A DNA stretch of 47,042 nt from positions 1 to 47,042 of the IMG/VR virus record IMGVR_UViG_3300048091_000152; one strand, written 5' to 3'. Made by a program: the position numbers and the translations under genes. Position 1 is the first letter of the stretch; each line of letters opens with the position of its first letter. The notes under the pieces were generated by a model. It saw only the letters and a list, made by a program, of their open reading frames with translations, was not told the DNA's origin and did no database searches. Shown here in pieces: positions 5,064 through 16,258 of this stretch. The DNA comes from a virus.

Positions 5064-6113
5064 CTATTTTGACGGCTTTGCAATGGCGCCGATGCGGCGG
5101 TAAACGCGCTCAGTGATGTCTCCCTTTGTGTGCCCCAGGAGCAGGCTCGCATCACTGACGTCGAGGATTTCTGACGCAGCTTTTGGCCTGATGTCACGGA
5201 ACTGGAAGCTGCCGATTTTTTCGGCCAGGAGAGTGTCGCCGAGTTCATCCGCCTCCTTTTTGGCCTTTTCCCGAGCCTTGTCCCACCGGTCACGAAGCAT
5301 CTTCGCGGTCATGCGCTTGCCGCGCGTGCTCACAATCAGATAACTGCAAATGTGCTGAGCATTGCGCTCGGCCATCTTCGCAATCAGCAGCCCCAGGCTG
5401 TTTGCCTCGTCGCCGTCAGTCATCTGGATACGTAGCTTCTTGTGTGTCTTGTTCTGCTGCACGCCCAAATATTTCCCCTCGACATTATCCTTCCTCATGA
5501 CCAGAACATCTGCCGGCCGTTGCCCGGTCAGATAAGCCAGGTCCATTGCGTCTTTCAGCTCTTGAGCTGCCTTCTTGTAAACAGCATCCCAAACCACGTC
5601 ATTCGCGTAGTAGTCCCGCGGCGTTTCCTTGTTTTTGCGCACGCCTTGGCACGGATTCTCCTTGGTCGTGAGCCCCCACTCCCGGGCGATATTGAAAACG
5701 TGGGAGAGGGTGGCGATCTCCCTGTTCGCCCGAACCTTTGCCGTCCGTGCATCCCGGTACCCGGCAATCGTGGCCGGGGTGATCGAGTCAATGGGAGCAC
5801 CGTCAAACATCGGCCGCAGCTGCTTGATCTCCGACAGATTGTCCTTTTGGGTGCGCGGCGCTTTCTTGGAGACGATGTCGCGGATGTACCTGTCGAAGAT
5901 GCCCTTCATGGTGCGCAGATCGAGGGGTTTTTCCTTGGCTTCGAGTTCTGCCCATTTGATCCTGGCCAGGTCCAGGTCTTTACCCAATGGGATCGCCTTG
6001 CCGGTCAGGTCCAGGTAGTAATAGGCAATCCAATCCTTCCCACTTTTCCGTTTCCGCGTCCATTGATACATCCGGGGCGGCAAATTGCGTGTTTCGGCCT
6101 TGCGGGGTCGCAT
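5064..6113 (-). CDS. int: Phage integrase (tyrosine recombinase)
   Basis: 349 residues. N-terminal arm-binding region, SAM-like core-binding domain around residues 68-145, catalytic domain from about 165. Visible catalytic residues are Arg199 (TGQRPADVL), Lys222 region, Arg309, His328 (LLLGHTKGD) and nucleophile Tyr338 (ITERVYRR). The usual His of the HxxR box is Arg306 (FRDIRPKAAS). It lies next to attL, so it should integrate and excise this element at tRNA-Ser. The ATG at 6113 is 1 bp from the stop of the upstream excisionase candidate. It is the last gene of the leftward PL operon. Confidence 0.95.
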   Translation of the reverse strand: MRPRKAETRNLPPRMYQWTRKRKSGKDWIAYYYLDLTGKAIPLGKDLDLARIKWAELEAKEKPLDLRTMKGIFDRYIRDIVSKKAPRTQKDNLSEIKQLRPMFDGAPIDSITPATIAGYRDARTAKVRANREIATLSHVFNIAREWGLTTKENPCQGVRKNKETPRDYYANDVVWDAVYKKAAQELKDAMDLAYLTGQRPADVLVMRKDNVEGKYLGVQQNKTHKKLRIQMTDGDEANSLGLLIAKMAERNAQHICSYLIVSTRGKRMTAKMLRDRWDKAREKAKKEADELGDTLLAEKIGSFQFRDIRPKAASEILDVSDASLLLGHTKGDITERVYRRIGAIAKPSK

Positions 6114-6114
6114 A

Positions 6115-6357
6115 TCAGTTCACTCGGGAGAAGTCGGGCGTCCATGCCGGCGTCGCCGGGTGAGGGTTTGGGTCAGCGATGGTCGGGGAGATCATGCCCA
6201 GCTTCATGCGGGCGTACATGCGGCCAACCAGAGGGCGTTTGCCGCGGCTTTCGACGAACACCCAATGACGATCCAGCAGCCAGCGCCGTTGGTAGGCCCT
6301 GGCCTTGTAGCCGGTGATGTCTGCCAGCTCTTCATCCGAGAGAATTTCAGTTTCCAT
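6115..6357 (-). CDS. DUF4224-type protein, candidate excisionase
   Basis: 80 residues. LSDEELADITGYKARAYQRR is the DUF4224 signature, found in small phage proteins encoded directly upstream of integrases. The following text (LLDRHWVFVESRGKRPLVG) fits the rest of a small winged-helix fold. Size, basic charge and position 1 bp before int suggest it is the recombination directionality factor, which binds att DNA and favours excision. The role is inferred from position and family. The ribosome site before the ATG at 6357 is weak, so coupling to upstream translation is possible. Confidence 0.75.
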   Translation of the reverse strand: METEILSDEELADITGYKARAYQRRWLLDRHWVFVESRGKRPLVGRMYARMKLGMISPTIADPNPHPATPAWTPDFSRVN

Positions 6358-10411: not shown

Positions 10412-12469
10412 TCAAGCTGCTTCGGCTTGGCGCTCGGCAACACGCCATGGGTCATTGGCGCGGGCCAGTGCGGCCATTGGCGGTGGGCTGACGCTGTTGC
10501 CGCACATATGGACCTGTTGGGTTTTAGTGAACGGCTTGCCGTCAGCGCCGTGGCTGATGATGTAGTCGGCGGGAAAGCCCTGGGCCTTGTACAACTCTGC
10601 CGGTTGCAGCATCCGTAGGCAGATATCGACGATCACGTACGGCGTGCCTTTGATGGTGACGGTGACCAGGCCCAGGCGATCCTTGGTGGTAATCGTTGGG
10701 GCTGGCGTATCGGCGGGGCTCATGTTCTCGGTGCCGTAGTAACTGATCAGGAACGCCGCGACCCGCAGCGCACCGGCTTCAACCTCTGGCGAGAGCTGCA
10801 ACTCGACCAGCGAGCTCTTTCCGCCACCGCCGGCGGTGATGGTCGGCGCCGATTCGTCCACGCCCTGGCCGACGCTGGATCCGAACTGACGCTCCATGAA
10901 GGCGGTGACCAGCCCGTGATGAGTGCCGCCGGCGCTGATGGTGTACAACGGATCTTCGGCGTCCCGCGCATCGCAGTTGCCGCGCAGGTGCACCAGGTTC
11001 GCGGTCACCAGCTGCTGCTGGCTGCCGGTGTTGGTCACCGTCGTCATCGGGTCCTCGATGCTCTTGGCGGTCGTGGTGTTGAAGCCGCCATTCATCTGGG
11101 CCATGAACACCGTGGAAATCCCCATGGCGTGCGCGGCGCCGGCCGGGCGCTGGTAGTTGCCGCCGCTGGTGATAGTCGGCAGCGGCTCGTCGAGTGCCTT
11201 TCCTTCGTCCTCAAACCGGAACTTCACCAGGTGCGCCGCTGCAAGTGCGTGCTTCGTGCCGCCAGCGACAACTGTACCCAGCGGCTGGTCGAGTCCTGGC
11301 ACGCGTGGCTCCTGACCCGCTCGTTCGCCGTAACTGGTTTGAATCAGGGTAGGGCTGATCAGCGTCAGTTCGCCTCGGTTGGCGCATGTCACCGTCGGCG
11401 GCGGTGTGTGCGGATCGTTTACCCGGTCGCTGCCCTGATGCGTGGCTGGCGCTATGATCGGGCTGGCCATGGCGAAGGATCCGCCGCGCGGCCAAGAGGT
11501 GACAGTGCGCAGCGGGTCGTGCGCTGACTGGACGCTTTCGCCTGACCAGTTCGCGATCGGCACGATGAACGGGTCAGCGGCATCAATGACGAATTTCTTC
11601 ATGCCCTTTGCGATCCGGCGCAAGGTTGCCGGTGCCAGCGGCTTCGCTCGGTCGAAAATGCTTTTGCTCGGGATCGTCCAGTCGATGCACTCGGCGGCGG
11701 TGCGCCACTTCTGTTGGCCTTTGACTGGGTGCTTGGCGTGGGTCGGTGCTGGCCAGACAATCGGCTCGCCGTCGCAGCGGGCAATCATGAACAGGCGTTC
11801 GCGGCTGGTCGGCGCGCCGAAGTCACAAGCCTTCAGCACTTGCCACTCAACGTCGTAGCCCAGGTGCTTCAGCTCGGCGACAAACGTGGCCCAGGTCTGA
11901 CCGCGACGCTTCGGATCGGGCACCAGGAACTGCTGGCCGACCGGTACAACCTCACCCGGCTCGGCAACGCCGCCGCCCAGTTTTACGACGCGGCCGGTGG
12001 TCTTGCAGCGCTTCGCGATCAGCGGCCCCCACTGGAGGATCTGTTTAACGTTCTCCAGGCTGATGACCCTGGGCTTCTTTTTGCCGGCCCACTTAAGGCC
12101 GATCCACGACAGGTTGCGAATCTCGCGCTTTCGCGGCTGACCGCCAGCGGCCTGGCTGTGGTGCGTGCAGTCCGGCGACATGTGAAACCAGCCGACGGCC
12201 TTGCCGCCGCATTCCGTATCTGGATCGCCGTCGAACACGTCGGTGGTGAAGTGCACGGCGCCCGGGTGATTCGCGGTGTGCATGCTGATCGCGCTGGCGC
12301 TGTGGTTCTTCGCGACATTCACCGCGCGGCCCAGGCCCATTTCCAACCCGGTACCGGCACCGCCACCACCGCAGAAGAAGTCGACAACGATCTCATCATC
12401 CTGAGGGTTGAAGCCAAGTCCGTACTGGGTCTTAAAGTTGGCGGCGTGCATCTTCTGGTGAACGAACAT
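10412..12469 (-). CDS. DNA cytosine-C5 methyltransferase
   Basis: 685 residues. Motif I is VVDFFCGGGGAGTGLE (about 28-43) and binds AdoMet. The catalytic loop is SPDCTHHS with Cys101. ENV (139-141) is motif VI, SRERLFMIA is motif VIII, and CGNSVSPPP near the C-terminus is motif X. Between about 290 and 560 lies a target-recognition region built of repeated units of the type DxPLxTITSGG. The enzyme should methylate phage DNA, probably against host restriction; the target site cannot be read from sequence. It is a leftward operon member and the longest gene of the left arm. Confidence 0.93.
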   Translation of the reverse strand: MFVHQKMHAANFKTQYGLGFNPQDDEIVVDFFCGGGGAGTGLEMGLGRAVNVAKNHSASAISMHTANHPGAVHFTTDVFDGDPDTECGGKAVGWFHMSPDCTHHSQAAGGQPRKREIRNLSWIGLKWAGKKKPRVISLENVKQILQWGPLIAKRCKTTGRVVKLGGGVAEPGEVVPVGQQFLVPDPKRRGQTWATFVAELKHLGYDVEWQVLKACDFGAPTSRERLFMIARCDGEPIVWPAPTHAKHPVKGQQKWRTAAECIDWTIPSKSIFDRAKPLAPATLRRIAKGMKKFVIDAADPFIVPIANWSGESVQSAHDPLRTVTSWPRGGSFAMASPIIAPATHQGSDRVNDPHTPPPTVTCANRGELTLISPTLIQTSYGERAGQEPRVPGLDQPLGTVVAGGTKHALAAAHLVKFRFEDEGKALDEPLPTITSGGNYQRPAGAAHAMGISTVFMAQMNGGFNTTTAKSIEDPMTTVTNTGSQQQLVTANLVHLRGNCDARDAEDPLYTISAGGTHHGLVTAFMERQFGSSVGQGVDESAPTITAGGGGKSSLVELQLSPEVEAGALRVAAFLISYYGTENMSPADTPAPTITTKDRLGLVTVTIKGTPYVIVDICLRMLQPAELYKAQGFPADYIISHGADGKPFTKTQQVHMCGNSVSPPPMAALARANDPWRVAERQAEAA

Positions 12470-14930: not shown

Positions 14931-15013
14931 TTATTCTTTCGAAGGGAAATGAGTAAAACGCTCGAAGTCAAGACTTACGGCGGGGGAGATCTTCAGATAA
15001 AATTTCTCAAAAC

Positions 15014-15029
15014 CTGTATGTATATACAG
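15014..15029 (+). promoter_or_regulatory. LexA (SOS) box
   Basis: CTGTATGTATATACAG is a CTG-N10-CAG site with an alternating TA centre, nearly the gammaproteobacterial LexA consensus. It lies 15 bp before the ATG of the rightward gene at 15045 and overlaps where its promoter must be. The host LexA should therefore repress that gene until DNA damage. Confidence 0.8.
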
Positions 15030-15044
15030 TAAAAGGAGAGATTC

Positions 15045-15359
15045 ATGGCGAAGCCGCAGAAGCAGCAGGAAAGAGTACCGATGTCAGGCATAGAGCGGCT
15101 AAACCTCAGGGTATCGGGGATGATTAACCATCCGATTGCCCAGGACAGGCGCTGGACAACAATCCATCGCTTGGACACGGATGGCGACCGAGAATGGGAA
15201 GAGGTCTTGAACGTACTATCTGAAGTGGACGGTATCGAAATGACATTCAACGACGAAGACGAATCAGTGACGTTGAGATGGGAGGCGCCCTCTGACAACG
15301 ATGCCCAGGTCGAAATCCACGATGAGTTTGACTCGATTGAGGAAGCGATACCTTTCTAA
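15045..15359 (+). CDS. LexA-controlled phage protein, candidate antirepressor
   Basis: 104 residues, acidic: MAKPQKQQERVPMSGIERLN, LDTDGDREWEEVLNVLSEVD, ending DEFDSIEEAIPF. AAAAGGAGAG precedes the ATG and a LexA box lies directly upstream. I do not recognise the fold. It sits between PL and cI, is convergent with cI and is separated from it by a bidirectional terminator. Temperate phages whose repressor is not cleaved by RecA use LexA-controlled small antirepressors (Tum of phage 186, Gifsy Ant proteins). By position and control this gene fits that role; there is no direct evidence of binding to CI. Confidence 0.75.
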   Translation: MAKPQKQQERVPMSGIERLNLRVSGMINHPIAQDRRWTTIHRLDTDGDREWEEVLNVLSEVDGIEMTFNDEDESVTLRWEAPSDNDAQVEIHDEFDSIEEAIPF

Positions 15360-15366
15360 CGCGCAC

Positions 15367-15395
15367 AAAAAAGCCCGCCGAGTAGCGGGCTTTTA
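15367..15395. terminator. Bidirectional terminator between the SOS gene and cI
   Basis: Stem GCCCGC (15373-15378) and GCGGGC (15385-15390), with A6 before and T4 after. It serves both the rightward SOS gene and the leftward cI gene. Confidence 0.75.
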
Positions 15396-15405
15396 GGTGT
15401 GTGGA

Positions 15406-16233
15406 TCAAGCCTTGCGGGCGTTCCAGATCAACAGCACTTTGGCGTGGATTGTGACGTCGTCGATTCTTGCCGTCTGGTTTTCGTAATGCTGGTTGTCCG
15501 AGATCAACCGATAATGCTCCTCGTCCAGGCGCATCATCCGCTTGATGTACAAATCCTGATGCCAAGTGAGCACGTAGATTCCTTCGCCGACAAAGTCTTT
15601 GATGCCCCGATCTACGATGACGAAGTCCTTGTCGTTGATCGTCCCTTCCATGCTTTGGCCCCAGCCGTTGATCATCGCCAGTGCCTCTGCGGAGGTGTAG
15701 GTGATGCCTTTCTCGCGCAAGACTTCTTCGCGAACAACCAGATTTCGGATCACCTCATTGTACTCAGATGGGACTTGCCCATGACCCATAGCAGCCCGCA
15801 CATCATAGTGGGGGATCAGAATCTCTTCGTTCGTGGGACGCAAAGTCGCAAAGCTCGAAGGCAGGTAGCTGGGGCCTTTCTCGGTTGGATTGTCCGCTTC
15901 GGCAGCCGCTGCGAGCATTGTTTCCCGAGCTTTTTCAGAAAGATTCTTGCCAGCCTTTGATGCAAGCATTTTTGCCATCAGTTCCACTGTAGACATCCCT
16001 GCCTTCGTGTCATCCGCCGACACCTGGTCGGGCGTGCCAACTCCGTCAGAGAGCCAATCCGGCGAACACTCCAATGCCTTCGCCAGCGCCAAAAGATTCT
16101 TTCCTTTCGCACCATTGGTTCCACTCACCCAAAAGCTGACCGTCGCCTTTGATACGCCAGTCAATCTACTGAGGTCGGTGGCGCTGAGTTCGAGCGCCTT
16201 CATGCGTGAGGTGACGCGGTCTTTAAATTCCAT
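15406..16233 (-). CDS. cI: CI-type phage repressor (HTH plus S24 peptidase-like domain)
   Basis: 275 residues from the ATG at 16233. N-terminal XRE helix-turn-helix: LSATDLSRLTGVSKATVSFW, then GTNGAKGKNLLALAKALECS. C-terminal S24/LexA-like domain with Ser in NGWGQSMEGTINDKDFVIVD and a Lys in LYIKRMMRL. A clear Ala-Gly cleavage site is not obvious (VRAAMGHGQ occupies that place), so RecA-driven self-cleavage is uncertain. It should keep lysogeny by binding the TTTAG-N4-CTAAA operators. The operator lies directly before this ATG and there is no ribosome site, so the mRNA may be leaderless as for lambda PRM; an ATG at 16251 is the alternative. Confidence 0.9.
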   Translation of the reverse strand: MEFKDRVTSRMKALELSATDLSRLTGVSKATVSFWVSGTNGAKGKNLLALAKALECSPDWLSDGVGTPDQVSADDTKAGMSTVELMAKMLASKAGKNLSEKARETMLAAAAEADNPTEKGPSYLPSSFATLRPTNEEILIPHYDVRAAMGHGQVPSEYNEVIRNLVVREEVLREKGITYTSAEALAMINGWGQSMEGTINDKDFVIVDRGIKDFVGEGIYVLTWHQDLYIKRMMRLDEEHYRLISDNQHYENQTARIDDVTIHAKVLLIWNARKA

Positions 16234-16234
16234 A

Positions 16235-16248
16235 TTTAGGATTCTAAA
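16235..16248. promoter_or_regulatory. Operator next to cI (OR3 position)
   Basis: TTTAG-GATT-CTAAA, a perfect inverted repeat immediately upstream of the cI ATG at 16233. Binding here would block cI transcription, i.e. negative autoregulation. Confidence 0.65.
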
Positions 16249-16258
16249 CATTTCGCCG

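Follow-up and report, generated by a model that had tools for sequence, protein, structure and literature searches.

Regulators that couple prophage induction to the SOS response of the host have been described in several temperate phages. The Gifsy prophages encode GfoA and GftA, small phage proteins under LexA control which inactivate a repressor that has no cleavage signature (PMC3121763). In Pseudomonas putida, the resident prophage gene PP3901 is described, in the passage of PMC4595014 that cites Abella et al. 2007, as being controlled by LexA1 and LexA2. In the same passage it is said to be required for the DNA-damage induction of other prophage genes. Here we consider a viral locus within a stretch of 47,042 nucleotides, referred to as the window, in which a small gene beginning at position 15045 faces the phage repressor gene cI. 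The most likely reading, and one that we consider probable, is that this gene encodes a LexA-controlled antirepressor acting on the C-terminal S24 domain of CI. The features of the locus are as follows.

15014–15029, plus strand: LexA box CTGTATGTATATACAG, conserved at the same place in 83 of 83 viral relatives
15034–15039, plus strand: ribosome-binding site AGGAGA, read from the sequence
15045–15359, plus strand: DUF1654 gene, 104 aa, proposed LexA-controlled antirepressor (Pfam PF07867, phrog_2707, AF2 model)
15324–15356, plus strand: C-terminal tail EFDSIEEAIPF, resembling the C-terminal tip of SSB (6 of 11 residues identical to SSB DFDSFDDDIPF)
15367–15394, no strand assigned: terminator-like hairpin (A6, stem, T4), possibly bidirectional, between the facing DUF1654 and cI genes
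15406–16251, minus strand: cI, repressor with HTH and S24 domains, the proposed target (Pfam HTH_3, 9.5e-11; Peptidase_S24, 2.4e-19)
15541–15543, minus strand: codon of CI Lys237, a dyad residue that is present
15652–15654, minus strand: codon of CI Ser200, the other dyad residue, also present
15784–15789, minus strand: codons of CI Met155-Gly156, at the usual position of the Ala-Gly cleavage site (alignment of 83 repressors)

The hairpin between the two genes (15367–15396) has a calculated free energy of -16.7 kcal/mol, and it is not among the hits of a simple consensus terminator scan. Elsewhere in the window, a 685-aa open reading frame on the minus strand (10412–12469) encodes a putative cytosine DNA methyltransferase.

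A preliminary description of this DNA had pointed to an acidic, rightward-transcribed protein of 104 aa facing cI. This is confirmed, the product of 15045–15359 having a pI of 4.3 and a net charge of about -15 and its gene facing cI at 15406–16251. The same description had not recognised the family of the protein, and here it needs correction: the protein belongs to the catalogued family DUF1654 (PF07867), matching with E = 8.7e-22 and 77.1 bits against a curated cut-off of 27, and residues 15–83 cover positions 2–69 of the 70-position profile. Comparison with the PHROG collection assigns it to phrog_2707, a group of unknown function. A Pfam search detected neither an SSB nor a DinI domain, an NCBIfam search gave no match and a sequence search of the PDB gave no relative. 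In the AF2 model the core, residues 15–80, is predicted with a pLDDT of about 90 and an H-H-E-H-E-E topology, whilst the tail is predicted to be disordered. Foldseek and VIA-align yielded no convincing structural relative, an absence which is no proof of a new fold; the best Foldseek E-values were 0.06 in the PDB and 0.005 in BFVD, the latter to an unnamed protein. The best structural Z score, 6.6, was obtained with ribosomal protein S8, and R3H and similar small alpha/beta domains were also matched.

The LexA box predicted earlier over the promoter region of this gene stands up well. A search of the 47-kb window for CTGTATN4ATACAG with up to two mismatches gave a single match, CTGTATGTATATACAG, with no mismatches, where 0.39 matches with two mismatches or fewer were expected; it lies 15 bp upstream of the 15045 reading frame. 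The bare CTG-N10-CAG pattern occurs nine times in the window against 14.5 expected, which is the level of chance, and the evidence therefore rests on the inner bases of the box and on its conservation. A CTG-N10-CAG box is found just upstream of DUF1654 in all 83 viral relatives and, when viral and genomic copies are pooled, in about 222 of 224 DUF1654 genes (221 picked automatically, with L129 added by inspection). In the remaining two, L112 and L198, the box has one half-site base changed. The distance from box to start codon is 13–23 nt in nearly all DUF1654 genes. By comparison, 122 kb of control cI loci contained three such boxes scoring at least 11/16, one of them at least 12/16, and LexA boxes are all but absent from the surroundings of CI relatives that lack DUF1654. 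The conservation of the box across relatives is decisive for its being real, and, judged from these sequences, predicted LexA control is a trait of the whole DUF1654 family. A simple promoter scan of the plus strand found no sigma-70-like promoter for the 15045 gene.

Known cleaved repressors carry Ala-Gly at the cleavage site. The window CI had been described as an S24-like repressor without such a site, and this is upheld by the alignment, in which Met-Gly occupies the usual cleavage position in 82 of 83 repressors and the Ser/Lys dyad is intact. Other repressors faced by DUF1654 carry Leu-Gly, and one or other of these pairs is present in nearly all facing repressors. The loss of Ala-Gly suggests that CI may not be self-cleaved. 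Ala-Gly repressors also accompany DUF1654, in F116, L193, L196, L197 and the tandem-class prophages, and a restriction of DUF1654 to repressors lacking Ala-Gly was rejected on these cases. Nor is Met-Gly exclusive to phages with DUF1654, since L307–L313 have Met-Gly repressors without DUF1654 within about 6 kb. The notion that DUF1654 serves solely as a remedy for an uncleavable repressor is not sustained, given its occurrence with Ala-Gly repressors and as a SOS gene of the host chromosome. In eight loci (L186, L191, L205–L208, L216 and L220), an S24 repressor gene with Ala-Gly at the usual cleavage position is closely followed by DUF1654 in the same orientation, and the DUF1654 proteins of this layout have no EExAPF tail. 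Five elements (L307–L311) contain Met-Gly repressors with neither DUF1654 nor a LexA box nearby; L309, which carries an integrase, a CII-like protein and a Prim-Pol primase, resembles a phage satellite. All five may need to have their inducer provided in trans.

The linkage between the two genes is close. Almost every viral DUF1654 gene is placed past the 3' end of an S24-type cI gene and points towards it. When loci were sampled by CI, a facing downstream DUF1654 was present in 74 of the 74 that had 4 kb or more of room, a figure which includes loci with less room where DUF1654 was visible; the six loci without it are contigs ending sooner. Among 99 Pseudomonas genomes, 33 of 44 CI matches had DUF1654 within 8 kb, including most of the close ones. 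The others are for the most part more distant CI matches, some of them within integrase–primase elements; one close CI match, G087:C7, is on a contig where DUF1654 gave no match.

The two proteins also vary together. Matrices of pairwise protein distances were compared over 153 distinct loci, and DUF1654 against the CI C-terminal domain gave r = 0.63, a value that no other tested gene pair reached. The corresponding value was 0.27 for the CI N-terminal domain and 0.06–0.23 for six other phage genes, and control gene pairs reached at most 0.37. The distances of different pairs are interdependent, and r is due in part to physical linkage, the C-terminal end of CI being the part of the gene nearest to DUF1654 in some loci. 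In loci with 700 bp or more between DUF1654 and cI, r was 0.57–0.70 for the C-terminal domain, 0.02–0.18 for the N-terminal domain and 0.20 for an equally distant control gene. The bootstrap interval for the difference between the C-terminal and N-terminal domains excluded zero in four of four comparisons, and that for the C-terminal domain minus the control gene in three of four. This co-variation favours a functional partnership of DUF1654 with the C-terminal domain of CI, as support and not as proof. With its predicted response to bacterial DNA damage and a family history in step with that of CI, the 15045 product probably acts as the trigger for waking the dormant phage.

DUF1654 is a nearly Pseudomonas-only family, found in 86 of the 99 Pseudomonas genomes surveyed (about 86%) and in five of 146 genomes from the rest of the order, a count which includes at least two genomes (G001 and G085) from the genus draw. 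The 20 top-scoring copies are chromosomal SOS genes. No S24 repressor was found within the 12 kb fetched around each, and 18 of them had a box in the first-pass span, with those of L176 and L177 appearing after a widened search. At L174 (compare L166–L185), outside any prophage context, a boxed DUF1654 gene (5995–6264) precedes an endonuclease I gene (5301–5990) of the same orientation, and a gene for a SRAP (SOS-associated peptidase) protein lies about 4 kb away; the arrangement suggests a Pseudomonas SOS operon.

A further feature of the proteins that face cI is their C-terminus. The window tail, EFDSIEEAIPF, shares 6 of its 11 residues with the Pseudomonas SSB tip, DFDSFDDDIPF, and among about 14,600 other C-termini scored from the loci only SSB ranked above it. 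Acidic, predicted to be disordered and ending in (I/A)PF-COOH, it has the form of the SSB C-terminal tip motif. A terminal Pro-Phe is present in 141 of the 146 distinct cI-facing proteins, extended to Ala-Pro-Phe in 127 and mostly preceded by Glu-Glu, whereas all 19 chromosomal and all 19 tandem-class DUF1654 proteins lack it. Third codon positions within the tail vary, indicating that selection acts on the protein. The acidic EExAPF tail of cI-facing DUF1654 is a new observation and, from its sequence, suggests mimicry of the SSB tail. Another SSB-like tail, PDFSDEIPF, ends a 217-aa phage protein with no Pfam match (L269:11213–11866), possibly a phage single-strand-binding protein.

PP3901 could be placed in the same family. 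Two primers from PMC4595014 were searched and had contig IMGVR_UViG_637000222_000004 as their sole match, the other two being readable in the same sequence. The promoter fragment is given there as -146 to -1, which runs exactly up to the GTG of L085:3041. This gene, PP3901, is a DUF1654 member (E 1.7e-32) with its own box, CTGTCTATGCATACAG, and hhalign matches it to the window family with 99.5% probability at 25% identity. The one paper found to mention DUF1654 by name does not link PP3901 to the family.

Taken as a switch, the locus would operate as follows. In the lysogen LexA would keep the DUF1654 gene silent. On DNA damage LexA would be cleaved and DUF1654 made, a step expected from the box and from known SOS biology. 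DUF1654 would then inactivate the facing CI through its C-terminal S24 domain, and lytic transcription would start. The suggestion of a LexA-controlled antirepressor had been made in the preliminary description, and it has been strengthened by the box, the linkage to cI, the co-variation with the C-terminal domain and the report on PP3901. Direct binding of DUF1654 to CI, with inactivation of the repressor, is what we infer. On the other side, CI retains its catalytic dyad, PP3901 is only 25% identical and tail-less, and DUF1654 is also found beside Ala-Gly repressors and on chromosomes without a repressor nearby; the chromosomal copies, which place the family outside prophages, are the main reason for caution.

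It is conceivable, albeit unlikely, that DUF1654 is an SOS effector acting through host repair or replication proteins, its tail docking on partners of SSB such as RecO, PriA, ExoI and Pol III chi, with induction an indirect outcome. The SSB-like tail on 141 of 146 unique cI-facing proteins, with its free C-terminal Pro-Phe and synonymous codon variation, would suit such a role, as would the chromosomal DUF1654 that has an endonuclease I gene behind it and no repressor nearby. However, PP3901 has no tail and is nonetheless reported, in the passage of PMC4595014 concerned, as needed for induction, and co-variation with the C-terminal domain of CI alone would not be expected of a host-directed protein. 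Somewhat more doubtful is a scheme in which CI is cleaved normally with RecA, at Met-Gly or elsewhere, and DUF1654 is an accessory gene of early lytic or post-induction expression. The intact Ser/Lys dyad of the aligned repressors is in keeping with cleavage, and so is the presence of DUF1654 next to Ala-Gly repressors, including that of F116; set against this are the retention of Met-Gly in 82 of 83 repressors, where known cleaved ones have Ala-Gly, and the requirement for PP3901 in prophage gene induction given in that passage (PMC4595014).

There is little to recommend the view that DUF1654 activates lytic promoters, in the manner of PrtN at the pyocin genes, in place of opposing the repressor, and we regard it as very improbable. 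The phenotype of PP3901, so far as the passage relates it, fits either role, and the weak structural likeness to small nucleic-acid-binding folds (S8 and R3H, Z at most 6.6) could be taken in its favour. Yet the protein is strongly acidic (pI 4.3) with no recognised DNA-binding domain, and it is hard to see why an activator would co-vary with the C-terminal domain of CI but not with its DNA-binding domain.

If DUF1654 is indeed an antirepressor, this would account for the sensing of DNA damage by a large set of Pseudomonas prophages whose CI repressors are atypical, and would give a function to a DUF found in most of the Pseudomonas genomes surveyed. The tail further suggests that the action of the phage inducer extends to host proteins of repair or replication. 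As a tentative extension, which we hold to be rather less than an even chance, cI-facing DUF1654 may be a two-part SOS switch in which an inactivator of the CI C-terminal domain is fused to an SSB-tail mimic that, at induction, draws in or obstructs the repair and replication proteins which bind SSB, whilst the tail-less chromosomal copies may act in trans on Met-Gly elements without a DUF1654 gene of their own.

A number of parallels can be drawn with the described systems. As with GfoA and GftA, the proposed role of DUF1654 is that of a small LexA-controlled protein directed against a repressor without a cleavage signature. The Gifsy repressors, however, have no C-terminal cleavage domain, whereas the window CI has an S24 domain, and the Gifsy antirepressor gene lies outside the immunity region while the window DUF1654 faces cI. 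The window family gave an hhalign probability of 3.5% with the Gifsy-2 gene after dinI, taken as gftA by position only, and profile comparison with Gifsy-2 DinI indicated no homology (0.4%). Tum of coliphage 186 is likewise a LexA-controlled antirepressor with an additional SOS-linked part, but this is a DinI-like half where cI-facing DUF1654 has an SSB-like tail. No resemblance to Tum had been recognised earlier, and profile comparison again indicated no homology (hhalign 0.4%), with no DinI match in Pfam. With the SSB tip, cI-facing DUF1654 shares a disordered acidic tail followed by a hydrophobic residue, Pro, Phe and a free carboxylate; most members have EExAPF where SSB has DDDIPF, and no OB-fold SSB domain was detected in DUF1654. 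PP3901 of P. putida KT2440 differs in its length of 86 aa, in having no EExAPF tail and in its nearest S24 repressor, which lies 3.4 kb upstream on the same strand and does not face it. It nevertheless shares with the window gene the Pfam family, the placement of the LexA box and the prophage setting, and the antirepressor reading, if true, would give the PP3901 phenotype a molecular target.
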